Assembly (NCBI GenBank): GCA_021904315.1
Contig: CM038911.1
Location: 8,033,390 to 8,097,389, forward strand
Direction: 5' to 3'
Source: Sphagnum magellanicum
Taxonomy: Eukaryota; Streptophyta; Sphagnopsida; Sphagnales; Sphagnaceae
Length of the DNA stretch: 64,000 bases
Both the position numbers and the translations under genes were made by a program. Of this stretch, positions 25,010 to 54,813 are shown one piece after another. Each line of letters starts with the position of its first letter. The first letter of the stretch is position 1. Below the pieces are notes generated by a model that saw only the letters and a program-made list of their open reading frames with translations, made no database searches and was not told where the DNA came from.

Positions 25010-25020
25010 ATAATGTAACC

Positions 25021-25874
25021 AAAAAAGAGAAGGTCCGAAAACACACAGCACACTGATTGCCTTCAACGAACCCAGGCGTTCGTGTTCTCTTGATCTATTC
25101 CACACAGTTCAGACCTTCGGAAACACACAACACACTAACTACCTACTGCTTCTTTCAGACGAACATCACAAGATCAAAAACGTACAAGTGCCTTGCATTC
25201 CACACAACAACAGAACATATTTTACAGTATCCTACTCCCGCCTCGCCCATTCACACAGATGCTAGTAAGGGGAAACTCTTTCATTACATTACAGACCACG
25301 TACATTCCCCGAAAGCACAAGCTTGCTTTCCCATCAAATGTTCACAAAAACACCAGATTCCCAATGCAGTCTAGTCTCTCTCTCTCTAATTCATCTGCAG
25401 TAGCTCGACCGACTACCAGGCACAGCGGAAAATTTTTGTATTCAGCCAAGCTATTCTCACTAACAAAGCTTTTCATTGCTCTCTTCACAAGGATCACTTC
25501 TTCTGCCTCCTGACTCTCCTAAAATCCGCTAATTCTCCTCCAATTTTTCTTCTCCTCGTAATTAAGCTACCCCAAAAACTCATCAGACTTCCGTTAGCTT
25601 CTTCCTGAAGCTTCTCGAATCTCATGCCACTCCATTCCATCCAACTCCCGCTGTCGGCCACCATTGCTTGCTCTTCTCCATCAATTCGACTCCATCCCTC
25701 CTCATAATTTCCAGCCGCCAATCTTCCTGGACCATTCAACACACACCAAGCAAGCCATGCAACTCCATGCAATAGTTAATGGGGTGCCGCAATGAGATGA
25801 CGGTTGATCAGGCAATCTAAACCTTAAAATCAGCCGGTGTTTAGCTTTACGCGGCGACTTAATTTCGCACTACA
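25021..25874 (-). repeat. 3' LTR
   Basis: The copy at lower coordinates, matching 32103-32952 along its length. On the minus strand it begins TGTAGTGCGAAATTAAG and ends in a T run. It carries a (CT)n stretch near 25376-25388, two units longer than in the other LTR. Confidence 0.9.
25494..25772 (-). other. 92-codon open stretch in the 3' LTR
   Basis: An open frame starting MHGVAWLAWCVLNGPGRLAA, kept at the same length in the other LTR (32572-32850) with a few substitutions. No family recognised. It may be a chance open frame or part of the leader of element or read-through transcripts. Confidence 0.3.
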
Positions 25875-25878
25875 TATG

Positions 25879-25892
25879 TAACCCCTCCCTTC
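25879..25892 (-). other. Polypurine tract
   Basis: AAGAAGGGAGGGG on the minus strand, a few bases before the 3' LTR, where plus-strand synthesis is primed in LTR elements. Confidence 0.7.
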
Positions 25893-26341
25893 TTAGACAA
25901 CTGAGTCCCTCAGCTTCATCTAGTCTGGTGGAGCATAAAAGATTTGGAGGTCTCGATGAGATCTCTCCCACTGGTGTCCATTGGTATTTTGGATGATGCA
26001 TAATCGACAGCTTTCCTCAAAATCGAGGTTACCCTTTCTATCTGGATGTCCGATGAATTGGTAGGGGCCCTCCTAACTTGTAGTTAGAGCTCTTCTTTTC
26101 CCTAGCTTCTTCATCTTTACCATCAATTGGCCTACAATCAAGCCCTCAAACAAATGCTTACCTTTTCTGGCAGCATAGATTTTTTTTTGTTACTTTTGAA
26201 CTTGCTCCACATTGAGCAAAACGTTGTCATGGATGCTTGCAATGAACTCTACTTTCTGCAGAAACTGAGCTCAACAGCTTCCATATCAACACCATCGTTA
26301 GTCTCAGCAATCAGGGCATGCAAGTAGTTGTCTGCCCTCAA

Positions 26342-27063
26342 TCATGGTGTTCGACCAGTAAGAATCATGAATGGAGAGAATTTTGTACTCGTTTGGATCC
26401 CACATTGGTACCCAAACAGAACCTTAGCCAACTGCTGATCCCAACAATCCATGTTGGCAGGAGTAGCAGCAAGCACAGTTATGCCATGTTTGATGGTTTT
26501 AATCATGCGCTCAGCCATCCCATTGCACTGAGGCCATTGGGGTGCAGTGCGTTGGTGTTGAATAGCATAGTCCCTACACATCACGTCGAACTCTGTAGCC
26601 CACTCCCCCCCATTGTCAGTCAGTACAAATTTGGGAACTCCATATCTACAAATTATCTCATCCTCCAAAAACCTGGCTGCTGTCTTTGCTCCATGGTCAG
26701 CAATCGCTTCGAATAGTGGTCGATGGCCACCATAATATATTTGTTGCCCGACTTAGTCTCAGGCAATGGCCCTGCAGTGTCCAATGCAACTCAATGGAAG
26801 AAATCACAAACATGAATGTTTTTTAATTGTTCATCCCCAGATCAGATGCTACCTGAGCTCCTCACCAATTGGCACTGTTGGCACCCTCTGACCACCACCT
26901 TAACACCTGCAGTTCGATTGTGCCAAAAGTACCTTCATCGAATCTCTGCCAACGTCCGTTGTTCCCCAAAGTGCCCCAGATCTTCATGCATTCGTCTCAC
27001 CAGAGACATCCTCTCCTCAAGTTTGGGCACAAGTAACGTTTTGAAGAAAAAATTTTGCTCCTT
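26342..27063 (-). pseudogene. Retrotransposon integrase, broken
   Basis: The HHCC zinc-binding region reads at about 26995-26865 (HEDLGH ... CQQC), with a TGA at a probable former CGA. The catalytic core at 26668-26342 includes FVLTDNGGEW (second Asp) and CNGMAERMIKT (catalytic Glu). Between them and downstream to the polypurine tract the frame is interrupted by stops and shifts. Part of the Ty3/gypsy element. Confidence 0.85.
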
Positions 27064-28407
27064 CTAGCAATAGTTGTTTGCCCTCTTCCTGATCCTCTTG
27101 CTCTCTTCAAAGCCAACTGCATCAGGCAGTACACCTTCCTTCAGCAGCGTCATACAGTCTGTATCCTCCCATATGTCAACGCAACTCAACTTTACTCCAT
27201 GATCTCCCTCATCATCGGATTTTGTAGAACCCAATTCATGGCCCCCAAACTTAGACATTTCCTGAGCTACCAAAGCCAAGTCTAACTGTTGTCGCTTGTC
27301 AAAGTACTGAGGTCTCCTTCTCTTCAGTACCATTCGCGCTCCCTCGTGCTGCACAAGTTCATTGCCCGTTGACACCGCTTCTTCACCTGGAATAAATTCC
27401 TCAGATAGGTCTTCTGCTGCTGCGGCGTCAAGCATATACAGTTGATGGTTGCCGACCCACATCCACTCTGTTTTTTCTCCTGCCTTAACACAGAGAAGCT
27501 CTCCTTCTTTTCTAGGTACATCAGCTTGAGTATCTGTAATGTCTTGGATTTCTGCACCAAAATCATCGTCATCTGTAGCTGATCCAACTGGGTTCCTACT
27601 CAAGGCATCCACATTCGTGTGCCTGAGTCCTGGTCGGTGTACTATTTTGAAACTAAAGTCTTGCAACATGCCGACCCACCTGCCTCTCCTACCATGTGCA
27701 TCAGATACAATCGCTAACCACTTTAGTGGTTTGTGATCTATGCGTAGGATGAAATGCTTCATGTGCAAGTACTGTCTAAAATGCATCACACCCCAGATCA
27801 GAGCGTTGCATTCTCCTTCCATTGGATGGAATCTCCTCTGAGCCTCAGTCAGGTTCTTGCTGGCATACGCTATTACTCTTTTGAACTTCCCTTCTTTTTG
27901 TGACAGTATGGCCCCAACACCCTTGGGTGACCAATCCACGTCCAGCCAGAAGGTTTGTTTGAAATCTGGTCGTGTGAGCACAGGCGCATCCACCAGTGCT
28001 ACCTTCAACACCTGGTATGCCTGTTCACAGCCCATATCCCATACAAATGCAACGTCCCTCCTTGTCAATTCAAACAAAGGACCTGCCAAGCTCGAGTAGC
28101 CTCTAACATACTTTCGGTAGTAACCTGTCAGACCTAAGAATGATCTGACGCTTGTGACATTCTTCAGTGTTGGGAAATGCAACATCGCTTCTATTTTTCC
28201 AGGATTGGGTCGGATACCCTCCTTGCTCACCACATGACCCAGAAAGGTGATAATCTTAACAACAAAGCAACACTTGCTTGGGTTGAGTTTCAAATTCACT
28301 TCCCTGAGTTTGCAGAGCACCGCATCCAAATGTTGAAGGTGCTCCCCCCAGCTTTCACTATGCACATTGAGGTTGTCAACGAACACTTTCAGAAATCTGC
28401 TTCCCAA
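27064..28407 (-). pseudogene. Retrotransposon RT C-terminus and RNase H
   Basis: An open stretch of about 447 codons. It starts with the end of the RT palm, where the catalytic motif reads FVDN instead of the usual (Y/F)xDD. A connection segment follows (GLTGYYRKYVRGYSSLAGPL), then RNase H (FWLDVDWSPKGVGAILS, an EGECNALIWG segment, IDHKPLKW, NVDALSRNP). The tail is the spacer before integrase. The frame is offset from the upstream RT part, so a frameshift separates them near 28405. Confidence 0.88.
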
Positions 28408-28409
28408 AC

Positions 28410-29348
28410 CTTAAAAACCTTTGACATAGTTCAAGTGAATGTATTCATTGCATTCTTGAGTCCGAATGGCATAACTGTCCAATCGTAGAATCCGGTCTTG
28501 GTGATCAGAGCTGTCTTCTTCATATCTTCTGGAGCCATTCGAATTTGCCAAAAACCAGACTGCAGGTCTAAAGCCGTAAACCACGTCAATTTTCCCAGCT
28601 GATCAATCACATCCTCCACAAGTGGCATCGGAAACATATCTCGACGTGTTTGAGTGTTGAGAGGCCGATAGTCTCCACAGAAACGCCTGCTTCCATCTTT
28701 CTTCACTGGCAAAGTCACCCGACAAGCATATTCGGAATTACTGGGTCTCATTTTACCCAAGTCTACCAGTGCATCAATCTGTCTTTTCACTTCAGCTTCC
28801 TCCCAGTAGGACAATCGACTAAGAGATGATTTGCAAGGTGGAAACCCTTGCGTGTCAATATTATGCTCACCAATGGTGCAGCAGCCCAGTTCGCCCTTGT
28901 TCCAAGCAAAGACGTCTCGGTACCTCTCTAGGATTCCCCAGAGTTGCTGCTGCCCACATTCACCTAAATCGGTGTCAATCTTGATTCGTTCACAGATCTC
29001 CTTCCATCTGATCCCCGATTCATGATGACTGGACGATACAAACTTCTTAATGGGCTCGCAATTAGAGTCGCTATCTTTCACCTGGACAGTTTGGAGCAGC
29101 ATTGGAATTGCAAAGTCGTGTTTGGAACAGTGTTGCCGCAACGACAATGGAACAGGTACATCGTGTGTGGATTCATGCACGGTCTGCCTGCTCTTCTCCG
29201 CATCAGACACCCACCTGATCCAGTCGGCATAATCATCCCCATCTATGATCTCTTCAGTCCTGATCCCATCAACCTGCTCCTGCAACATCAGTCGTAGCAT
29301 TTCCTGCGGTCCTTCTGAGCTGACCAGTTCCTCAAACTCAGCATCCAC
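28410..29348 (-). pseudogene. Retrotransposon reverse transcriptase, N-terminal part
   Basis: Fingers and palm of a Ty3/gypsy RT: LPVKKDGSRRFCGDYRPLN, then FTALDLQSGFWQI with the first catalytic Asp, then TVMPFGLKNA. It stops at 28431 with TGA where the family has Arg (CGA), then shifts frame before the catalytic-motif region. The first 100 codons are an acidic linker after protease. Confidence 0.9.
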
Positions 29349-29374
29349 AAACTCATCTTCTGAGTCGATCTGTT

Positions 29375-29935
29375 CTATTCGATTAGATTTCGAATCATAG
29401 TATTCACTGGTATCACTGTCATCATCGGAATCTGAGTGGATGCGTCGCCCTCCTCATTGACAACCTCTCGATCCTGATCATGTACTGCGTCACCATCTTG
29501 GTCGGCATGTACGTCCTTCCAAGTGGTCGACGTTCCTCGCACCATCGCACATGTACTCATTCTCTGCAACAAATTTACCACCGTCAGTGGCAACACCTCT
29601 ACATTGGTCCCAGGCCCATGCCTTACCTGGATCAGACCTCGTTCCACATCAACCACCGCTCCAATCTTCATTAGAAAGTCTAGACCAAGTAGCACGTCAT
29701 ACCCATCCGTGTCTACTACCATAAAAGTCATGGCACATTGTATGCCTCCGATTTTGACTTGTATCTCATCAACTCTGCCCAATGCCCGAGTGATTATTCC
29801 CGATGCAGTCTTGTAACTCTCATTTCCTGTCACAAGATGCATTATACCCAACTCTCTTACTACAGCAGCAGCCAGTACAGACATAGATGCTCCTGTATCT
29901 ACTAAACCTTCAACAACGCAGTTGTTGATCTCCAC
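29375..29935 (-). pseudogene. Retrotransposon aspartic protease
   Basis: Retropepsin-type domain with the active-site motif VDTGASMSVL near residues 11-20 and the flap/second motif region DVLLGLDFLMKIGAVVD. A stop just upstream (29942-29944) separates it from the preceding open stretch at 30268-29942, which lacks recognised motifs. Confidence 0.88.
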
Positions 29936-29941
29936 AGGTAG

Positions 29942-30268
29942 TTATAGAGTTTTGCTCCAATGCGTCTTATTGACGCAAATTTTCCTTAGTGACGGGAGTG
30001 CAGAGACCACTGAAACTTGATTCTCGGTGGTCTCTAAGTCCCTTCTTCTCCTTGCCAGCTTCACCAAGCTCTCAAGGTGCTCCAGCTCTCCAGGAATCAT
30101 GAGAATGGTTTCCATGGGAGATAGGGGGATCTTTCCTTTTATGAAATGTGATAAAATTTTGGACCTCACAGAAGTGTCCCTGTTCGCATTAGCTCCCTCC
30201 CTTTCAGCTTCAGGGATTGGCGCAACTCCTCCTGGTGCTACATTGACAGGAGTCCTTCTCCTTGGCAC
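29942..30268 (-). pseudogene. Gag-Pol linker open stretch of the retrotransposon
   Basis: About 108 codons between gag and protease, rich in Arg, Lys and Glu, with no recognised domain. Bounded by a stop and shift on the gag side and a TAA before protease. Confidence 0.5.
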
Positions 30269-30399
30269 TCGGGTGTAGGAAACAAATTTTCATTTCCACA
30301 CAGCTTGTCAAGCTGCTGCTTGGTCGCCGCTCCATCATCGAGCAACACTTCTGAGAAATTCGTTGCTCCAGCTGTTGATTTCCCATCTTTGGGCTTCTT

Positions 30400-31209
30400 T
30401 TAGCATTTGTCTTCAGAGTGCCCTAGTCCTGTACAGAAGGTACATTTGATTCCACAGTTTTTTGTCCTATGCGGCATATTGCACTTTGCACATTTCGGCC
30501 GTGCTTCATTTAGCCTCGGACAGGCAGTGGCCATATGGTCCCCACCTTTACAAAGCTGACATGCTCCAAAGACAGTGGAAGAGGATGATGATGTTGGATC
30601 ATGCGAATTCCCCTTGAATAAATTGATGAGAGTGTTGTTCAACGCAGCAACCTGCTTCTCTACATTGCTTTCCAACGTCTCTTCTTCCTGTTCCTCTGGA
30701 AGATATTCATACGGTGTTTCCCCGAGTTCACCCAGAACTCTTTCAACCTCCATTGCAACTCCAACCAACTCTTTGATATTTGTGAACGTTCTCACCACGC
30801 AGAGCTTTCGGATCTCTGGCCTCAGTCTAGCCAGGAACCTCCTCTTCTGCTCTACGTCTTGTATCTTGCCCTTCCGAAACAATTTGTCCAAGCGTTCAAA
30901 ATAATTCTGAACCCTTTTTTTGGGTTCTTGTTTGATGGCATCCATTTTCATTCGGATGTCATCAGCATCTATGTTCCCATACTTCTACACCATCAGCGTC
31001 CGTAGCTCGGTCTAGTCAGTAGGCACCGGCAGCAGCCTCTTAAACCACTCCTTCGCTCAACCCCTCAAATTCAACTTGGCGATCTTGAACAGCTTATCAG
31101 CAGTGAGATCGCGCACTTCGGCAACCATGGTAAGTCGCTCTGCCCAATCATTTACATCCTCGTGATCTCGCCCCCAAAACAACTCATCCATTCCCTGAGG
31201 ACTCGTCAT
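30400..31209 (-). pseudogene. Retrotransposon gag, broken
   Basis: From the ATG at 31209-31207 the frame reads MTSPQGMDELFWGRDHEDV and typical gag helices (KLFKIAKLNLRG, AKEWF), but is cut by a TGA and two TAGs before 30990. An open part at 30951-30400 continues with NYFERLDKLFRKG and ends with CCHC zinc knuckles: CQLCKGGDHMATAC, an irregular CAKCNMPHRTKNC and CTFCTGLGHSEDKC. The stops fit CGA, CAG or TGG changed by one transition. Confidence 0.85.
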
Positions 31210-32086
31210 CTTCACAGAAGTTCAATAACACAGTAAAAAATTGCAGCACTCCTCTCCACACACAGTTCTTCAATTCAAAGAAAAAAAAAACAGATGCACA
31301 CAGAATTGATCAGAATCTTAACTCCTGCAACACAGTTCCGATTCTTTAAAAAAAAAATGTTGTCCGAATCACCCATCGAACTCGAACTGAGCACCCTCAG
31401 CGATCGGTTCCAAAGGCGCAATATTGGATGGAACAGTGGTGAAGTTCTACTCATTCGTAGATTCTTGCTGGAATCTCCATTTTCCTTCCTTGCTTCGCCA
31501 TACTTTCCAGCTAATGAGGGGGATTTCGATCCGCCGTGCTCCACCTGAAGCAAGCGATCTCCCTCCTGAAATAAATCCTCCACACCAAGGATGTATAGCC
31601 TCATAAAATGGTTAGGTGACACCGCCAACTTAGGAATCCAAATGTCCCTTAGCCTCGGTAGTGCACGCTATCTCTCAGCATATGCAGGAGCAATTCTACG
31701 CAAGATAAGAGGTGAAGTAAAAGTTGGTCTGTAAGTCTAAGGTCAATGCCCACCCCCTTGTTCCATCGATTACCCTTAACCACACTCGTGCACGATTGTA
31801 GAAACCAATATGAATTACTTCTACAGCAATGTCTCCTACTCAAGCTTCATCGAGATCTATCCCTACAAGTCTCACCACTCCAAAACCTAGAAAGCGCAAA
31901 ATCACTGCTCCTCTCTGTGGTCCGTTCTGAACAGTAAGGAAATCAAATCTACCAACAAGCTGTTGCTCACGAATCTCTTGAGTCATTTGCTCCACAGGAA
32001 CATCCTCGTCATTAGACGAAGACATGATTCTCAATTATCATTTTATCTAAGCATCTACAGGTTCTACCAAGGTTGGAAACACGGAA
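31210..32086 (-). other. Retrotransposon leader region
   Basis: Lies between the primer binding site and gag. A 64-codon open stretch (32034-31840) follows the primer site, then stops in all frames. No domain recognised. Confidence 0.5.
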
Positions 32087-32102
32087 CCATGTTCTGATAC
32101 CA
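32087..32102 (-). other. Primer binding site (initiator Met-tRNA)
   Basis: TGGTATCAGAACATGG on the minus strand, next to the 5' LTR. It is close to the complement of the 3' end of plant initiator Met-tRNA (TGGTATCAGAGC...). Confidence 0.9.
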
Positions 32103-32952
32103 AAAAAAGAGGGTCCGAAAACACACAACACACTGATTGCCTTCAACGAACCCAGGCGTTCGTGTTCTCCTGATCTATTCCACACAGTTCAGACCTTCGG
32201 AAACACACTGCACACTAACTGCCTACTACTTCTTTCAGACGAACATCACAAGATCAAAAACGTATAAGTGCCTTGCATTCCACACAACAACAGAACATAT
32301 TTTACAGTATCCTACTCCTGCCTCGCCCATTCACACAGATGTCAGTAAGGGGAAACTCTTTCATTACATTACAGACCACGTACATTCCCCGAAAGCACAA
32401 GCTCGCTTTCCCATCAAATGTTCACAAAAACACCAGATTCCCAGTGTAGTCTAGTCTCTCTCTCTAATTCATCTGCAGTAGCTCGACCAACTACCAGGCG
32501 CAGCGGAAAGTTGTAGTATTCAGCCAAGTTATTCTCACTAACAGAGCTTTTCATTGCTCTCTTCACAAGGATCACTTCTTCTGCCTCCTGACTCTCCTAA
32601 AATCCGCTGATTCTCCTCCAATTTTTCTTCTCCTCGTAATTAAGCTACCCCAAAAACTCATTAGACTTCCGTTAGCTTCCTCCTGAAGCTTCCCGAATCT
32701 CCTGCCACTCCGTTCCATCCAGCTCCCGCCGTCGGCCGCCATTGCTTGCTCCTCTCCATCAATTCGACTCCATCCCTCCTCATAATTTCCAGCCGCCAAT
32801 CTTCCTGGACCACTCAGCACACACCAAGCAAGCCATGCAACTCCATGCAATAGTTAATTGGGCGCTGCAATGAGATGACAGCTGATCAGGCAATCTAAAC
32901 CTTGAGATCAGCCGGCGTTTAACTTTGCGCGACGACTTAATTTCGCACTACA
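32103..32952 (-). repeat. 5' LTR
   Basis: Upstream LTR of the minus-strand element; begins TGTAGTGCGAAATTAAG on the minus strand. Contains the second copy of the 92-codon open frame (32850-32572). Confidence 0.9.
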
Positions 32953-43445: not shown

Positions 43446-44112
43446 CCAAGTTCTTCGGGAAAACATATGTCTTAAATATTTTTGCAATCACAGTCATCTC
43501 ATATTTATTTTTATATAGGGTTGCAACCTATCATTGGAAAGTTTTTTAAGAAAGCTACAAATTTGTAGTTGGAAGCACTTCAATCAGAATTCATATACAA
43601 AAGTTATGATCACACAAAGTTTCAGACACATTTGTTCTTCAGGGGAACATGGTTTAGGTTGTTCTTCAGGGGAATTGCTTTCGGGCACATGGTTGGCCCC
43701 TGGGGAGAAACGGGCTTAAATTGTCTTGGGGAAATAACCATGTTCCCCCAAGGAGCAAATGTGTTTGAAATTTTTGTGTGATCATAACTTTTACACATGA
43801 GTTTTGATTGAAATGTTTCCAACTACAAATTTGTAGCTTTCCTCAAAATCTTTCCAATGATAGGTTGCAAGCTTATATAAAAAAAATGAGATGATTGTGA
43901 TTGCAAAAATATTTGGAACATATGTTTCCTCAAAGAGCAAATGTGTCCAAAATGTTGTTTGATTGTAGCTTTTGCATATGAATTATGATTGAAGTGTTTC
44001 TAACTACAAAGTTGTAGCTCTCTTTGAAACATTTCCAATGATAGGTTGTAAGACCATACATAAAAATATGAGATGACTATGATTACAAAAAGATTCAAAA
44101 CATATGTTTCTT
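43446..44112. repeat. Large inverted repeat with a third tandem copy
   Basis: Arm A (43446-43652) is repeated inverted as arm B (43738-43936) at roughly 85% identity, and B is followed by a direct, more diverged copy B' (43925-44112). Shared landmarks are AACATATGT, GCAATCACA.TCATCTCAT, CAACCTATCATTGGAAAG, AGCTACAAATTTGTAG and TTATGATCACACAAA. The 85-bp loop is richer in G+C. A transcript would fold into a hairpin of about 200 bp. Confidence 0.7.
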
Positions 44113-46845: not shown

Positions 46846-46949
46846 CTATATGTTCTATCATTCTTTTTTGTTGGATTGTTGTTGTATGTTACATAGTAGC
46901 GTACATTAGACTGTGTAACAATATAATAAGGTATAAATGAAGCTAAATT

Positions 46950-47469
46950 CTAATTTTGTAGTTTTAAACCAGTCCTCACTCTATTCACAACATCAATTCT
47001 TCTAGTAGAAGACCATAGAATGAACTTCACCCACAACCTCATTTAGTTGTACTACTCATTGTTTCCATGAAACATAAAAATAATAAATAATTATACTATC
47101 CTAATTAAGGAATTTAGACCAACCATGAAACATGTTTATTTTACATATCTAAATGATCAAATCTCTCTTAACTACCTCTCTCAAACTACCCCTATCTTAC
47201 TTATACATCAACATGAATACATGGCACACCCCCCCCACCCCTTCCCCACACACACAAATGAAAAATTCCCCTCAAATTCCTTTCAAGAAGTTAACAAGAC
47301 ATTTTCCATTCATTTATATCCATTAAGGATTTCCTTATTTCCTGGCCACAAAGGTGAAATAGATATTTTTTTGGAGTTCTCAGATTCAGGTCTCACTTCC
47401 CCACCTATCTCCTTCAAAATTATCTCCTCATATCCCAATTTCAAAAGGTTGATGCCACTCACCCAGGTT
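46950..47469. other. AT-rich intergenic
   Basis: No gene recognised. Short C and CA runs at 47229-47257. Confidence 0.45.
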
Positions 47470-47645
47470 CATTAGCCCATTAAACATTTTCGTCATCTCC
47501 ACGATAGACATGTTATTTTATTCATGTTTCAAACTTCTCCCAAGGTATTTCCCCACATTCCAAAATGTGGCGAAAGAAGAATGGAGTAAAACAAATATCC
47601 AATCTTTAGAAAATTGATTGTGGGCATTTTTCCCATATAGTCTTG
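47470..47645 (+). repeat. Dispersed repeat, copy 2
   Basis: Related to 5956-6140, as described there. Confidence 0.5.
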
Positions 47646-47756
47646 TGCATGTAACTTGATGTAGTTAAGTTATTATTTATATAGTTATTTAACATTTAAG
47701 TTTGGTGATTTACTTGTTAGTAGGATTTCATAATTTAATTATGATTTGGTCATAGT

Positions 47757-47990
47757 GTTTGACTTTCACATGAAAATTTATGTGGAAAGTCATGTGATAA
47801 GTTTTTGGCACATTAAGGTGCATTTATTTTCACACGATAATTTATATGAAAGTCATGTGAAAAGTTTTTTACACATTAAGGTGCATTGATTTTCACATGA
47901 TAATTTATGTGAAAGTCATGTGAAAAGTTTTTGACATATTAAGGTGCATTAACTTTCACATGATAATTTATGTGAAAAGTTTTTGCCATT
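47757..47990 (+). repeat. 63-bp tandem repeat, about four copies
   Basis: Units of exactly 63 bp start at 47818 and 47881 (GTGCATTGATTTTCACATGA ...), with partial copies before and after. Each contains TTTCACAT ... ATGTGAAA, able to form a stem, and AAAGTCATGTGAAAAGTTTT. Confidence 0.85.
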
Positions 47991-47994
47991 TTAT

Positions 47995-50630
47995 TATGTG
48001 ATGTGTAAACTTTAAGAAACTTCTTGTTTGTTTTCCTTTTGGTTAGTATATAAGTGAGTGTTTGTGACCTTTGGAAACACCTTCATTTGATAGAAATAAG
48101 TCGTGGTATGAATGTAAAACTTCATGGACTAAAATTGTGAAGGGAATTGAGATTTTAATTTTGAAAGGTTTTGGTGTAGTTTATGTGAAATCCATGGTAG
48201 GAGAATGGTGTGGCATATTAATTATACATAAATAATAGAAAGGTGAAAAAATATTTATGTAAATAAAAACATAGATTTTCATAGTTATATAATAAACATA
48301 CATAGTTTCGATCTTAAACCCACTTGTGATTTACATGCACATTCCTAATTAATTGAAATCTACCATCTATTGAAATTTGAAATCCATACAAAAAAGGACA
48401 AAATCAACCAAAATGCTTACCTATGAAGCACTTGCTTCCCCTTCATATCATTGGTTTAACATCCTTCAACCATAAGTCTTTCTGCCATATTTTTCTGTTG
48501 TTGAGCCACCATCATCAAAAAATTTAAAGGGTTTCAAAACAAAAAACCTTTGAAGTCCATCGTTTGATCATAACGCTTTCAATTTGATACCACATACTAG
48601 CTATCACCTTTCACATATAGCAAGAATCACATAGACACTAAAACAAAGAAAACATAGGGTAATGATAAATCCAACCATTCTATTTCTTGTCATTTTCTCC
48701 TTTTGATAACTTCACCCTCTTTTCAAAGAGGTGTGATCATAATTAAACAAGCCAAAAAAGGTGTTAGATGATAGAAAAAAATAGTCAAAATTGAAAAAAT
48801 ATTTTTGTTTTATCATTTAAAATTATGAAAATCATAGCAAGTTGTTTTTTTTTCATCTATATGAATGCCAAGGAATAAATCAAAAATTCATTTGATAAAA
48901 TTTTAAATTTAAGTTTCAATTAAAAACCTTTGAAAGTGAACACTTATTATAACAAAAAGAATCAATTTTGCAAAGGACTATAAAAAAGACTCATAAAATA
49001 AAACAAAATTAACGAAAAAAAGAAGAAGATAAAAATTAATTAAACGCATTCAAAAAACATTCGTATCTTAAAACATGTGCAATTCTAAAACTTTAAAAAT
49101 TCAAAGAACTTCTCAAAATTGATCTAAAATTTAGAACTTCAAAAGTCTTTTACCACATATAAATTAGGTATGATGTACATGATGTGTTAAGAAAAATTGT
49201 AATTTACTATACAATTTTTTTTTTAAATTTTAAAATAAATTTTTTAGTATGATTTAAAATTATAATCATTTAAAAAATGAAATACTGAATTCACAAATCA
49301 GCACACTTTCTAATATTCATATTTATGTGAAAATTATTTAAAAAAAAGATATTATGTACTTGAACCAAGTATAAACATGTATCCTAACAATTTGTAAAAA
49401 AATTGTTCAAAAATTCATTTGTATAAAAAGAAAATTTGGGACAAAAAGATATGTAACATCCTTTTCTAAAATAATGCCATTGATTCATTCAATCCCATTT
49501 GCACCCTTAAATTTTCATTCACAAAAACTTATCATCTAACTCCATTTCCTTCCACAACTGAGTCTTCTTGTTGCTTCCACAAACATGCCAGAAAGAACCT
49601 CACAACACAAACTTTGTAAATACCTATAATAGTTTCTTTAAGTTTTGGGTGGAATTTTGTATCTTTAGGTTGAGTAGATTTTCAATGGAATTTTTAAAAA
49701 TAAATCCGTAAGTTTGGAATCCTTATGCATTGTGTCACAGTGTGATGATGTAGTGTAAATATATTTTATGGACTGACTTTTAAGGGATGCTTTTCTTCCC
49801 TTGCCTTTTGAGCTACCTTGATTTGCATTGACCCCAACATGTGTGGGTACTTAGTCATTGTGACTCAATTCTTGTGTGATTTTATGATAGTGGATATGAA
49901 TGTCTCACACAAATTTTGTGTGCAAACCTCATAAGACTATGATCTAACACACTCATTGTCATGGTCCATTTGAAACAATGTTGTATAGATTTTTTTGCAA
50001 GCACATAAGGTATGACTATTGTCTTGTATGTGCGAGACTACTGGAAGGAAGTTATTCTTTGCATATATCATAAAATAGGTGAGATAGAAAGATTATTTTT
50101 TGATATGCTACGAAATAATTAAATAAGAAATAAATATAAATATATATTAAAATTCAAAATATTTAATTATATTTTTTATAGATTCTTATAATCCAATTTT
50201 TGAGCACGATATTAAAATTCTATTAAATAATAAATTATATATGTAATATATTTAATAAGCTGCAACCTGTATTCCAACAACTTCACGTCATTTGAAAAAA
50301 AATGGAAATAACCTCCCCTGGGTGGGAGCTAGATAATTGTCTGCAACAGAGTTATCCTTAAAGTCAGGCGATCAGGTAGCGAGAACGGCCAGTCTCGGGA
50401 TAATAGGGCATCAAACGCGTGACTGGGACCCAAACTAGTTTTTTACACCAATTTTGGTTGGTAAACTGAGTTTCATCCTGTGTTTCCTTTTTCCTGAGCG
50501 CCTGCACTGCTGCTACACATATTTTCACTGCTCCTACATGTACAACTACAATAATTACACTCGACGAACATTGTGCGTTAAATGCATTTCATACCCAGCT
50601 TTAATAAAATTTCCTTACTTTGCGGATACC
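47995..50630. other. AT-rich intergenic, no gene seen
   Basis: No gene or element recognised to 50,280. Bases 50310-50460 form a small GC-richer island of unknown nature before the phytocyanin locus. Confidence 0.5.
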
Positions 50631-50633
50631 ACT

Positions 50634-50707
50634 GAAAGAGGGGATAGGGGGCGAAAGCAGAGGCGATAGGGGGCGAAAGCAGAGGCGATAGGGGGTGAAA
50701 CAGAGGG
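50634..50707 (+). repeat. 22-bp tandem repeat, three copies
   Basis: GAGGCGATAGGGGGCGAAAG units, the first and last with small changes. Confidence 0.85.
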
Positions 50708-51414
50708 TGACTTTTAGGAAAACTCTTGTGTCTTTATGTCTTTTCTCAATATATTTGAGCTTGCTCTGCATTCTTCAATCTTGTAGATAGATACAATTTA
50801 AGTCTCTCTGCAATCCTATATTTAGATACATTTGAATTTCCTCTGCATTCTTCTAGATCTACAATTTTGAGAGATTTTTCTGCAACTTTTTAGATACATG
50901 AAGACGACGCGCACGGCACTCTCAAAACTTCAGGCTGGTTAGATTTACATACTGCATTCAACTGATCAACGGGGGAGTGAGTTGGAAGTCTGTGCTCGAC
51001 TGCTTGAAGCGAACTCGAGAAAGATCATCTTTTGTGTCCGAGCGAGGATGACTACATGTATCCAAAGCATAGATGCATTGCAATGCAATGTGCAACACCA
51101 TGAAATCATGACACTCAGATTTCGATTCGAAACAAACATCAAAGTTCACAACAATTTGTGGACGCGAAGAGGAGGATCTGAAACAATATGTGGATTTGTT
51201 TGTTTGAATCACTTTGTTGAGCACTCCAAACCAAAGCGAATTTAATAACAATTGAAAATCCAGTTCAGGAATATGTTTGGTGGCGTTCAACATTAATAAA
51301 ACATGGGCAAACAAACAAGCAAGCAATCAAGCAACCATGCCTGCAGTAGCAGTGATTCATGAGCCTTCTATTTTCTCTCTTATTTCCTTATCCACTGCAT
51401 GGCGCATGAAGCTC

Positions 51415-52077
51415 TTAGACCACCAGCGCGTTGAGAACTTCAATGGTTATCTTCTCACCCGCAGCGCAGTGGCCTGGTGCTCCACTGATGAAGTAGAGGA
51501 TGGTATAACCTTGGAGCGGGTAAGCACCAGGCCCGTTAGTCCATGACTGGATTGGGTGCATCGTGTTACAAGTGTTGTAATCGTCTACAGTGACTTGCAT
51601 CACGCTGTCCTGCCCGCTTGCGTACACGAAGTCTGCAACAATCCAGCAAAATTTTAGGCCGGCCTCAGCAATTCATGACGCACTTGATCATTCATGATCG
51701 TCTCTCTTAGAGTTCTTGCAGAGCCTAGTGCATCCTAATATGGTGATGAACTCCTTACAAAAACTTCGTTTTACATAGCCTGTGCAGAAGTTATAACTCT
51801 AGATAATAGAAGAGCTGGTAGTGCTATGAGCATTCATGAATTGAAACATACTGGAGGTGGTAGGAGTAAGAATTGTGGTACCAAGAGAATCGCCAGTATG
51901 GAAACCGTTGGGGAGGGTGCTCATGGCCCAATCGTGGTAGAAAGTTGGAGTGCGCGGAATCCCCCAGCCAAGAATATCTCCCACCACGAAGTTGGTGGCC
52001 ATGGAAACTGGCAGGTGGTGCAGCATGAATGCTGCTGTCAACAAGAGTAGCACAGCGGATGTGGAACCAGCTGCCAT
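51415..52077 (-). CDS. Phytocyanin, ENODL-like (copy A)
   Basis: Small secreted cupredoxin-fold protein of 137 residues. Two exons, 52077-51882 and 51632-51415, join across a 249-bp GT-AG intron in phase 1, the position usual for phytocyanins. Residues 1-27 look like a signal peptide (LLLLTAAFML, cleavage near SMA-TN). The plastocyanin-like domain follows: NFVVGDILGWGIP, W50, GDSLDFVYASGQDSVMQV, YNTC87, YFISGAPGHC121. Disulphide cysteines 87 and 121 are kept. Of the copper ligands only His120 remains: the usual His is Asp74, the ligand Cys is Ser115 and the axial residue is Glu125. This is the pattern of early-nodulin-like, non-copper phytocyanins. There is no Pro-rich or GPI-anchor tail. It differs from copy B by HH instead of QQ at residues 20-21. 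Divergently transcribed from copy B. Confidence 0.9.
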
Positions 52078-52274
52078 TGCAAGTACGATCTCGTAATTTA
52101 CTAATCAAACTGGCCTCTCCCGACTACGTAGTCTAGAAAAACTTATAAAGAAAAGAAAGCTGGAAGTGAGGATGCAGGTCAAGAGAGGAGGAGGAGGAGG
52201 ATTACTACCAGAGCCTTATAATCCAGGAACTGAAGAAGAAGGAAGCCTTGAAGAGGAGGATGTGGAGGAGTGTG

Positions 52275-52282
52275 CTTTTATA
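52275..52282 (-). promoter_or_regulatory. TATA box of phytocyanin copy A
   Basis: TATAAAAG on the minus strand, about 200 bp before the ATG, at the position matching TACAAAAG in copy B. Confidence 0.65.
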
Positions 52283-52312
52283 GCCTGCCCAATTCTGAGC
52301 ACACGAGACTGA

Positions 52313-52408
52313 TATGATTGTTTCCTGTTGCATAATGCACGGCCTGTTTGGTTTCCACTCGACTAGTTCCTACAGGCCACATACAACTGGAACCAAGCAA
52401 TAACATGC
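52313..52408. promoter_or_regulatory. Shared divergent promoter core between the two phytocyanins
   Basis: About 100 bp of mostly unique sequence at the centre of the inverted duplication, between the two TATA regions. Upstream elements of both genes must lie here or in the partner's transcribed region. No known motif assigned. Confidence 0.5.
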
Positions 52409-52436
52409 AGTCTCGGGTGCTCAGATTTGGGGAGGC

Positions 52437-52444
52437 TACAAAAG
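52437..52444 (+). promoter_or_regulatory. TATA-like box of phytocyanin copy B
   Basis: TACAAAAG, about 230 bp before the ATG; it aligns with TATAAAAG of copy A and so carries a T-to-C change in the third base. Confidence 0.5.
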
Positions 52445-52674
52445 CAGACTTCCCATGTGCATTCTCCTACCATTGCAATCTACGCTGATCTCTTCTGCAC
52501 GTTTGCTTGCTTCTTCTCCTTGATCTACATTAAGCTCTGGTAGTAATCCTCCTCCTTCTCCTCCTCTCTTGACCTGCATCTCACTTCCAGCTTTCTTTTC
52601 TTTATAAGTTTTTCTAGACTACGTATAGTCGGGAGAGGCCAGTTTGATTAGTAAATTACGAGATCATACTTGCA

Positions 52675-53337
52675 ATGGCAGCCGGTTCCACATCCGCTGT
52701 GCTACTCTTGTTGACAGCAGCATTCATGCTGCAACAGCTACCAGTTTCCATGGCCACCAACTTCGTGGTGGGAGATATTCTTGGCTGGGGGATTCCGCGC
52801 ACTCCAACTTTCTACCACGATTGGGCCATGAGCACCCTCCCCAACGGTTTCCATACTGGCGATTCTCTTGGTACCACAATTCTTACTCCTACCACCTCCA
52901 GTATGTTTCAATTCATGAATGCTCATAGCACTACCAGCTCTTCTATTATCTAGAGTTATAACTTCTGCACAGGCTATGTAAAACGAAGTTTTTGTAAGGA
53001 GTTCATCACCATATTAGGATGCACTAGGCTCTGCAAGAACTCTAAGAGAGACGATCATGAATGATCAAGTGCGTCATGAATTGCTGAGGCCGGCCTAAAA
53101 TTTTGCTGGATTGTTGCAGACTTCGTGTACGCAAGCGGGCAGGACAGCGTGATGCAAGTCACTGTAGACGATTACAACACTTGTAACACGATGCACCCAA
53201 TCCAGTCATGGACTAACGGGCCTGGTGCTTACCCGCTCCAAGGTTATACCATCCTCTACTTCATCAGTGGAGCACCAGGCCACTGCGCTGCGGGTGAGAA
53301 GATAACCATTGAAGTTCTCAACGCGCTGGTGGTCTAA
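52675..53337 (+). CDS. Phytocyanin, ENODL-like (copy B)
   Basis: Predicted secreted cupredoxin-fold protein of 137 residues. Exons 52675-52870 and 53120-53337 join GACTCTCTT-type sequence through a phase-1 GT-AG intron, giving GDSLDFVYASGQDSVMQV at the junction. Same features as copy A: signal peptide, Cys87 and Cys121 kept for the disulphide, Asp74, Ser115 and Glu125 where copper-binding members have His, Cys and Gln/Met. Reading through the unspliced intron would end after 92 codons and lose the C-terminal half, so splicing is needed. By eye the 249-bp intron is identical to that of copy A, and the exons differ by only a handful of bases. Both copies are intact and likely both expressed. 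Confidence 0.9.
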
Positions 53338-53807
53338 GAGCTTCATGTGCCATGCAATCGATAAGGAAATAAGAGAGAAAATAGAAGGCTCGTGAATCAC
53401 TGCAGGCCTGTCTGTTTCCCCATGTCAAGTTAATGCCAAACACCAAACAGACATTGCTCTGAACTGGAATTTTAATTGTTCTTGCTTTGATTTTTAGTGA
53501 TCGCACCACAGAACAAACAAATCCTCATTTTCGCACCCACAAATAATTGTGTTTGTTGTTGGTTTCAAGTCAAAAGTGTCATGATTTCATGGTGTTGTGC
53601 ATTGGATTGCAATAAATTCTAATCAAAGATCATTTGAACATTATCTTCTTGTGGGGTTGCATATCAGATGCTTCCTCCTCTCATTTGTCTAGTTGGACCT
53701 CATTGCACCAAAGTCTACTGCAAACAATGGCAACATTAACTAGAAGAAGGTGAACAAACTTGAAACAAATGAAACCCCAAACAATCATGGGATGTGCATG
53801 TGCAAAT

Positions 53808-53955
53808 GTAAATGATTGCAGAGAAAACTCAAATGTATCCATAAGATTGCAGAGCAAACTCAAATGTCCGTATAACATTGTATAGCAAACTCAAATGTAT
53901 CTATATGATTACAGAGAGAACTCAAATGTATGTAGAAGGTTGCAGAGAAAACTTC
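53808..53955 (+). repeat. ~31-bp tandem repeat, about five copies
   Basis: Units of GATTGCAGAGNAAACTCAAA followed by TGTATCTATAT-like sequence. Inverted relatives lie at 50745-50900. Confidence 0.75.
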
Positions 53956-53960
53956 ACAAT

Positions 53961-54813
53961 TACAATTGAAGGTAGTTGATTTACATGGTACTTGTGTCAG
54001 TTCCAATCAAACCAACACAAACATGGTATACATGAGAAGTAGATCTACTCACAAAGTAGATACCATCACATTCATCATGAATGACAGCAACCAGAAGCTG
54101 TTTCCTCACCCACAGAGAGTACTGTAACTATCAGATTGCAGAGAAAACTCCAAAACAAGACTTGCTAACATGACAAGAATTAATGCAGTCATAGTCATAC
54201 ATAAAGTATCACACTGTCACATTCATCATGAATAGCAGTCATGAGCTCCCATAACTCCCCACTGATTTCATCAGCCTCTGTCAGTGGGTCTAAATAAGCA
54301 TATAATATAGCCACCCCAATTCAGGGCAAATCATTATACAAGCATCTGTGTCCAAATTTTATGTCTCATTTTTAGAAGCAACAGGAAGATTCAGCCATGA
54401 TATCCACCAGCATTCAAAAGAGGCACAGCTATTTGAAAGAGTAACAGCATTCTCATTCAAGCTGCAACAAGCTTGTACAGGGAAGTTTCATTTCACATTA
54501 GCTTGTCTCCCATGCAAGCAATCATATGAGGGAGTTCATTACAATTTGTACCATGTAAAATTCACGTACACCACTTTCCTCTTGAGGCTCCTGCGAACAG
54601 TGATATTGCACGAACCAGGGCCAAAATCAAAGAGAACAATATGGGCACATAATACACTGCTGCCTAAACATACAATACATTATTTCAAGGGAAGAATAGG
54701 AGATTGCAAAGCAGCTGAAAATCACAAAGGACTAAACTGAGAAGAATTAAATATGCAGCAAGATAGTGGTTGAGATCTAGCAGAGAAGCTCGGTGAAGAT
54801 CTCGGGCTTCATG
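53961..54813. other. Intergenic and probable 3' UTR of the TPR gene
   Basis: More balanced composition than distal spacers. A 130-codon plus-strand open stretch (54348-54740) has no family resemblance and lies antisense to the likely 3' UTR. No clear AATAAA was found on the minus strand. Confidence 0.4.

Follow-up and report, generated by a model that had tools for sequence, protein, structure and literature searches.

Probable arm-to-arm gene conversion in the middle of a palindromic pair of phytocyanin-like genes in a moss genome

Introduction

Two outward-facing genes in a moss genome carry introns that are identical between the arms of a palindrome, and the promoters and 3' flanks on either side of these genes differ by around 30%. 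How can the middle of an inverted repeat remain uniform while its neighboring sequence drifts apart? An initial annotation of this DNA proposed gene conversion between the palindrome arms, limited to the transcribed unit, and held that a recent duplication alone would not suffice. We examined the locus in its window, the 64,000-nucleotide stretch of DNA that was analyzed (C5:8033390-8097389), and compared it with the genome as a whole (438,994,042 bases in 31 contigs).

Results

A divergent gene pair in inverted arms

The palindrome in the window (A) contains two two-exon genes that are divergently transcribed from within inverted arms, each arm being about 1.2 kb in length, on a 25-Mb contig. 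The principal features are as follows.

51415..52077, minus strand: left phytocyanin-like gene (AL), with exon 1 at 52077-51882, intron at 51881-51633 and exon 2 at 51632-51415
52078..52210, minus strand: left 5' leader
52211..52345, minus strand: left half of the promoter region, differing from the right half by about 32%
52275-52282, minus strand: TATA element TATAAAAG in the left promoter
52397..52540, plus strand: right promoter half, with a TATA-like site, TACAAAAG, at 52437-52444
52675..53337, plus strand: right phytocyanin-like gene (AR), with exon 1 at 52675-52870, intron at 52871-53119 and exon 2 at 53120-53337; translated, 137 aa
51034..51360, minus strand: left 3' flank, 28% different from the right flank
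53390..53636, plus strand: right 3' flank, in which similarity between palindromes A and B (below) stops at 53635

The splice model for AL was inferred from GT/AG boundaries and the AR reading frame, mirrored via the alignment. One ungapped block of the arms extends over 778 nt at 99% identity, and the inverted arrangement is therefore not a chance match. These gene models, together with an exact inverted match of 607 bp, agree with the earlier description of two outward-facing phytocyanin genes in inverted arms. The range originally given for the structure, 50740-53960, does contain the palindrome but is a generous outer limit, as arm homology spans 51077-53613. Repeats of a 31-bp unit beyond this homology contribute just a weak inverted match (36 nt, 78%). 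They comprise a minisatellite at 53803-53962, outside the right arm and past the point where A/B similarity has already ended, and similar units, inverted and identified by eye, at approximately 50740-50910, outside the left arm.

The AR product contains a plastocyanin-like domain (Pfam PF02298; E=1.5e-18, 67 bits against a cut-off of 20.8), and its best solved relative is mavicyanin (1ws7; E=7.4e-19). The type-1 copper ligands of phytocyanins are His, Cys, His and Gln/Met. Aligned to mavicyanin, AR is changed at three of these four positions (His to Asp, Cys to Ser and Gln to Glu) and retains one His. By this alignment, AR lacks the full set of type-1 ligands of a copper-binding phytocyanin; in this, its product resembles the non-copper early-nodulin-like proteins.

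Identity between the arms is a mosaic

Left/right differences in palindrome A were counted over ungapped columns only. The introns, 249 bp each, are identical (0/249), as is exon 2 including the stop codon (0/218). Exon 1 differs at 4 of 196 positions, the 5' leader at 1 of 132 (with 6 gap columns) and the end of the 3'UTR at 3 of 54. The promoters differ at 36 of 114 positions (31.6%) with an additional 69 gap columns, and the 3' flanks at 70 of 247 (28.3%) with 82 gap columns. The longest exact inverted match covers 607 bp (51405-52011 / 52741-53347) and includes the introns. Alignment thus bears out three elements of the initial annotation, namely the identical 249-bp introns, the near-identical exons and leaders, and the diverged promoters and 3' flanks. 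Uniform divergence along the arms, which had been named as the outcome that would speak against conversion, was not seen, with zones ranging from 0% to 31.6%.

Related palindromes in the same genome

In place of a comparison between related species, we used other palindromes of the same genome, identified by a search with window positions 51340-53420 as the query. This search recovered a second palindrome, B, at C5:10088153-10090232 (10.089 Mb), which is 97% identical to the query and inverted, and a third, C, which matches in pieces over C5:10100502-10102758 (10.101 Mb) and is more diverged than B. A solitary, more distant gene, D, lies on C9; among the matches listed, no locus besides these four was found. 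B and C lie approximately 2 Mb from A, and A and B have a 6.8-kb segment in common:

46850..53635, no strand assigned: segment shared with palindrome B, located at C5:10087939-10094752, inverted, 93.9% identical

The three palindromes are not alike in the uniformity of their middles. Over the corresponding stretch, the arms of C differ at 27 of 602 positions, as compared with 1 of 616 in A and 1 of 613 in B. Palindromic design therefore does not guarantee homogenization, which is not a constant property of these structures. Between the right-hand leader and gene of C, about 320 bp (C5:10101695-10102015) have no match in A or B and replace about 100 bp.

Introns group by palindrome and flanking sequence groups by side

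A four-arm alignment of A and B yielded 143 variable ungapped columns; columns with a gap, which include a 3-bp intron gap that groups the arms of each palindrome and longer gaps that group by side, were left out. These columns comprise 99 with a side pattern (left with left, right with right), 21 with an arm pattern (AL=AR, BL=BR), 17 private, 6 more complex and none crossed. The 120 informative columns are completely partitioned: all 21 arm-pattern sites fall within the intron, where they span 51653-51878 (226 bp), and all 99 side-pattern sites fall outside it. The resulting side-arm-side order forms 3 runs, and 3 or fewer runs occurred in 0 of 100000 order shuffles (minimum 22). A seven-sequence alignment gave a similar picture (21 arm-pattern, 103 side-pattern and 0 crossed sites).

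Approximately unbiased (AU) tests agree. For the intron, the grouping ((AL,AR),(BL,BR)) is favored and each alternative is rejected (p=1.7e-4), whereas ((AL,BL),(AR,BR)) is favored for the 3' flank and for the promoter, with arm grouping rejected at p=1.6e-34 and p=1.3e-5, respectively. Within palindromes, the introns differ at 0 of 249 positions in A and 1 of 246 in B. Exon 2 is the same in all four arms and, being invariant, is uninformative on conversion.

Arm grouping in the intron combined with side grouping outside it indicates that a palindrome with already diverged arms was copied, and that its arms then exchanged sequence in at least one daughter. For one daughter, these site patterns make such an exchange certain. 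Arm-to-arm conversion, the mechanism originally put forward, is thus the best-fitting reading. A recent inverted duplication, by which the arms would be identical simply through youth, could account for the 607-bp exact match. We give it practically no credence, because the promoters and 3' flanks are homologous yet 28-32% different, and their differences are common to B (99 sites). The arms therefore split before the A/B copy and the introns became alike within palindromes after it, and the insufficiency of recent duplication alone, as first argued, is upheld by the 99 side-pattern and 21 arm-pattern sites.

The same comparison bears on two further explanations. Strong purifying selection, acting for example on a regulatory element or RNA within the intron, might hold the introns identical, and the exons are indeed near-invariant in all four copies. 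Between A and B, however, the intron varies more than any other of the seven zones compared (8.5-8.9%, against 0-3.7% elsewhere); it is therefore not tightly constrained, its high identity being found only within a pair, and we consider selection of this kind to have next to no chance of being correct. The second concerns the assembly, in which the inner arms could have been collapsed or cross-corrected, as short-read polishing struggles with near-identical arms. Against this, the assembly keeps the left and right flanks and promoters apart, and there are two intron versions, each present in both arms, so that 21 substitutions and a 3-bp gap would have to be altered consistently. In addition, if the assembly analyzed here is the published 439-Mb one of Sphagnum divinum, it draws on PacBio reads at about 70x (accessible portion of PMC9946827), which should span the 2.5-kb palindrome. 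An artefact is, in our estimation, highly improbable.

The latest tract is confined to the middle of the gene

The side-pattern sites nearest to the intron are at 52012 in exon 1 (as well as 52015 and 52018) and at 51395 in the 3'UTR. These side-specific sites confine the latest conversion to 51396-52011:

51396..52011, minus strand: maximum extent of the putative latest conversion tract, left arm; 616 bp, 1 difference relative to the right arm (at 51403-51404)
52741..53347, plus strand: right-arm partner stretch, identical over 607 bp

The latest tract accordingly measures between 226 and 616 bp, and its start in exon 1 lies beyond codon 22. One element of the initial annotation has to be given up at this point: conversion does not extend over the entire transcribed unit, as the tract ends inside exon 1. 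The leader is near-identical between arms, yet carries only side-type or private differences. By this distribution, the near-identity of the leader and first codons would be either older than the A/B duplication or a product of constraint.

Polarity and the question of both daughters

When pair C is used as the outgroup, the 21 intron sites resolve into 7 derived in B, 4 derived in A, a block of 7 at which CL matches B and CR matches A, and 3 unresolved (1 differs in all three palindromes and 2 are hidden by a gap in CL). The 7 B-derived sites occur in both B arms, with D matching A at 6 and showing a gap at 1. The 4 A-derived sites likewise occur in both A arms; here, D matches A at 1, has a third base at 1 and a gap at 2. 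If the polarity provided by pair C is correct, we infer that conversion took place in both daughters; for A itself, this involves 4 sites polarized by C alone, without support from D. GC-biased conversion was considered and is not claimed: counted by eye, 4 of the 11 C-polarized sites changed from A/T to G/C, 6 in the opposite direction and 1 in neither.

The 7-site block bears on direction. The arms of C still differ at these intron sites; A matches one of these arms and B the other, a pattern suggestive of conversion in opposite directions in the two daughters. D matches B at 5 of the sites, has a third base at 1 and a gap at 1; the A/CR version thus looks derived, although the intron of D is too diverged for firm alignment. 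In the simplest reading, the ancestral palindrome would have had one intron version per arm, C would have kept both, and A and B would each have fixed one. An exchange between C and either A or B is also a possible source of the block.

Divergence of the introns between palindromes provides a related measure. A and B differ at 22 of 246 intron positions (8.9%) and at 49 of 1881 (2.6%) in the non-coding stretch 49451-51360 (Fisher p=6.5e-6), an excess that is expected if part of the intron difference predates the A/B copy. The excess shrinks once the 9 sites in the block region are removed (to 13 of about 219, p=0.011), and it disappears when 46850-49450 (194/2592, 7.5%) serves as the reference. 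We set this last stretch aside as a neutral yardstick, since it is AT-rich, CpG-depleted and transition-rich (28% GC, CpG observed/expected 0.24, 141 transitions and 53 transversions), and used the nearer 2.6% stretch; divergence closer to the palindrome is 2-3%. Faster decay of methylated DNA perhaps explains the high divergence of 46850-49450. The case for conversion itself is independent of the choice of yardstick, and the opposite-direction reading is partly dependent on it.

Rather than exchange between arms, a third locus, either C or a different paralog, could be envisaged as the donor of repeated conversions into both arms. The 7-site block is common to B and CL, and likewise to A and CR, as such a donor would predict. 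Moreover, A and B match without a mismatch over 371 bp at 52502-52874, across leader and exon 1 (the longest such run in 2000 shuffles was 280), and over 263 bp at 50720-50984, in non-coding 3' flanking sequence (95th percentile 189); these stretches may reflect exchange between palindromes or constraint. On the other side, the 7 B-derived and 4 A-derived intron sites are in neither C arm, so that no known donor carries them, and a third locus would need two same-content transfers into both arms, for each palindrome. We regard such a donor as quite unlikely, if a shade less so than an assembly artefact.

Site counts in the outer zones of C are mixed. At sites separating left from right in the 3' flanks, CR matches the left version at 31, the right at 20 and neither at 16, and the corresponding counts for CL are 18, 17 and 26. 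In the promoters, CL gives 18 left, 10 right and 3 neither, and CR 11, 16 and 3. An inversion of the spacer in C relative to A and B was entertained and is not claimed: the site counts are ambiguous and the spacer has the same orientation as in A.

Discussion

We conclude that a palindrome was very probably copied with its arms already diverged, and that interlocus gene conversion between arms followed in A and, separately, in B, sparing the promoters and 3' flanks. By this account, a phytocyanin-like gene would have undergone inverted duplication long ago, yielding a palindrome whose arms share a short promoter region, and the whole palindrome would then have been copied to give the three found on one contig. 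Separately in A and B, non-reciprocal homologous recombination would have copied the central part of one arm over that of its partner, making the introns and adjoining exon sequence identical inside each palindrome. Promoters and 3' flanks, at about 30% divergence poor substrates for pairing, would have been skipped and so would have retained their left or right identity. The individual steps follow general knowledge of recombination: a broken arm could pair with its inverted counterpart, either in cis or on the sister chromatid, and be repaired by synthesis that would end where homology drops, at the diverged promoter and 3' flank. Timing and direction are drawn from three palindromes in one assembly, with arm-pattern sites in only 226 bp of intron.

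A more specific history, in which the two arms had different intron haplotypes when the A/B copy arose, conversion in opposite directions fixed opposite versions, C retained both and the promoters went on diverging, strikes us as evenly balanced between right and wrong. The TATA element bears on the last part. It is TATAAAAG on the left and TACAAAAG on the right of A, the right-hand change is also present in B, and both promoters of C have TATA. On this sequence evidence, the products stay alike and regulation may have separated (TATA left, TACA right). If this is so, and if the moss is a fast-recombining Sphagnum, short palindromes could serve as modules that keep products identical and leave expression free to split.

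Comparable cases are known. The Drosophila Amylase proximal and distal genes, to which A can be likened, form a palindromic pair with conversion, and D. kikkawai has two separate palindromic Amylase clusters; in Drosophila Hsp70, two palindromic pairs show paralogs within species that are more alike than orthologs (excerpted text of PMC3924832 in each case). Unlike Amylase, the moss locus has its informative sites in an intron, replaces comparison between species with palindromes of the same genome, and is in a plant; unlike Hsp70, it concerns a different gene, again in a plant, and a recent tract of at most 616 bp. On mammalian sex chromosomes, arm-to-arm conversion holds palindrome arms near-identical, and these palindromes are large with arms at >99% identity (PMC8981503, in the part available), whereas the moss arms are about 1.2 kb and homogenized only in the middle. 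In the moss Physcomitrella, the high similarity of tandemly arrayed genes was read as a hint that gene conversion makes them evolve in concert (accessible sections of PMC3045890); that suggestion concerns tandem genes and derives from similarity, whereas A and B allow an inverted pair to be tested phylogenetically.

Among the matches listed in a literature search, judged by titles and the openings of abstracts, no earlier report of gene conversion in Sphagnum or in phytocyanins was found. The term "gene conversion" is absent from the main text of PMC9946827, and the available portion of PMC3729371 contains nothing on conversion between gene copies. The locus adds a new, well-controlled example to the palindromic gene pairs that evolve in concert through gene conversion. 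The kind of gene copying is known, and it is shown unusually cleanly here through a second palindrome 2 million bases away. The three related palindromes constitute a clean natural experiment within a single plant genome: the gene middles are identical or near-identical in two of them and not in the third, the tract is bounded at 226 to 616 bp, and its edge is sharp where it meets the diverged promoters. For duplicates at this locus, similarity within a pair is unusable for dating.

Other repeats in the window

The window also contains several repeats outside the palindrome. Next to it, in the right flank, 54136-54307 represents a short repeat family, with at least 43 other dispersed matches on many contigs at 72-83% identity (40 of 623 candidates scored). 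A foldback of about 485 bp at 43452-43936 is nearly self-complementary (77%) and is perhaps a mobile element. At 25018-32952, 857-bp direct repeats (94.5% identity) flank frames identified by eye as Ty3/Gypsy-like gag, protease and reverse transcriptase; this element is LTR retrotransposon-like, and its frames are interrupted.
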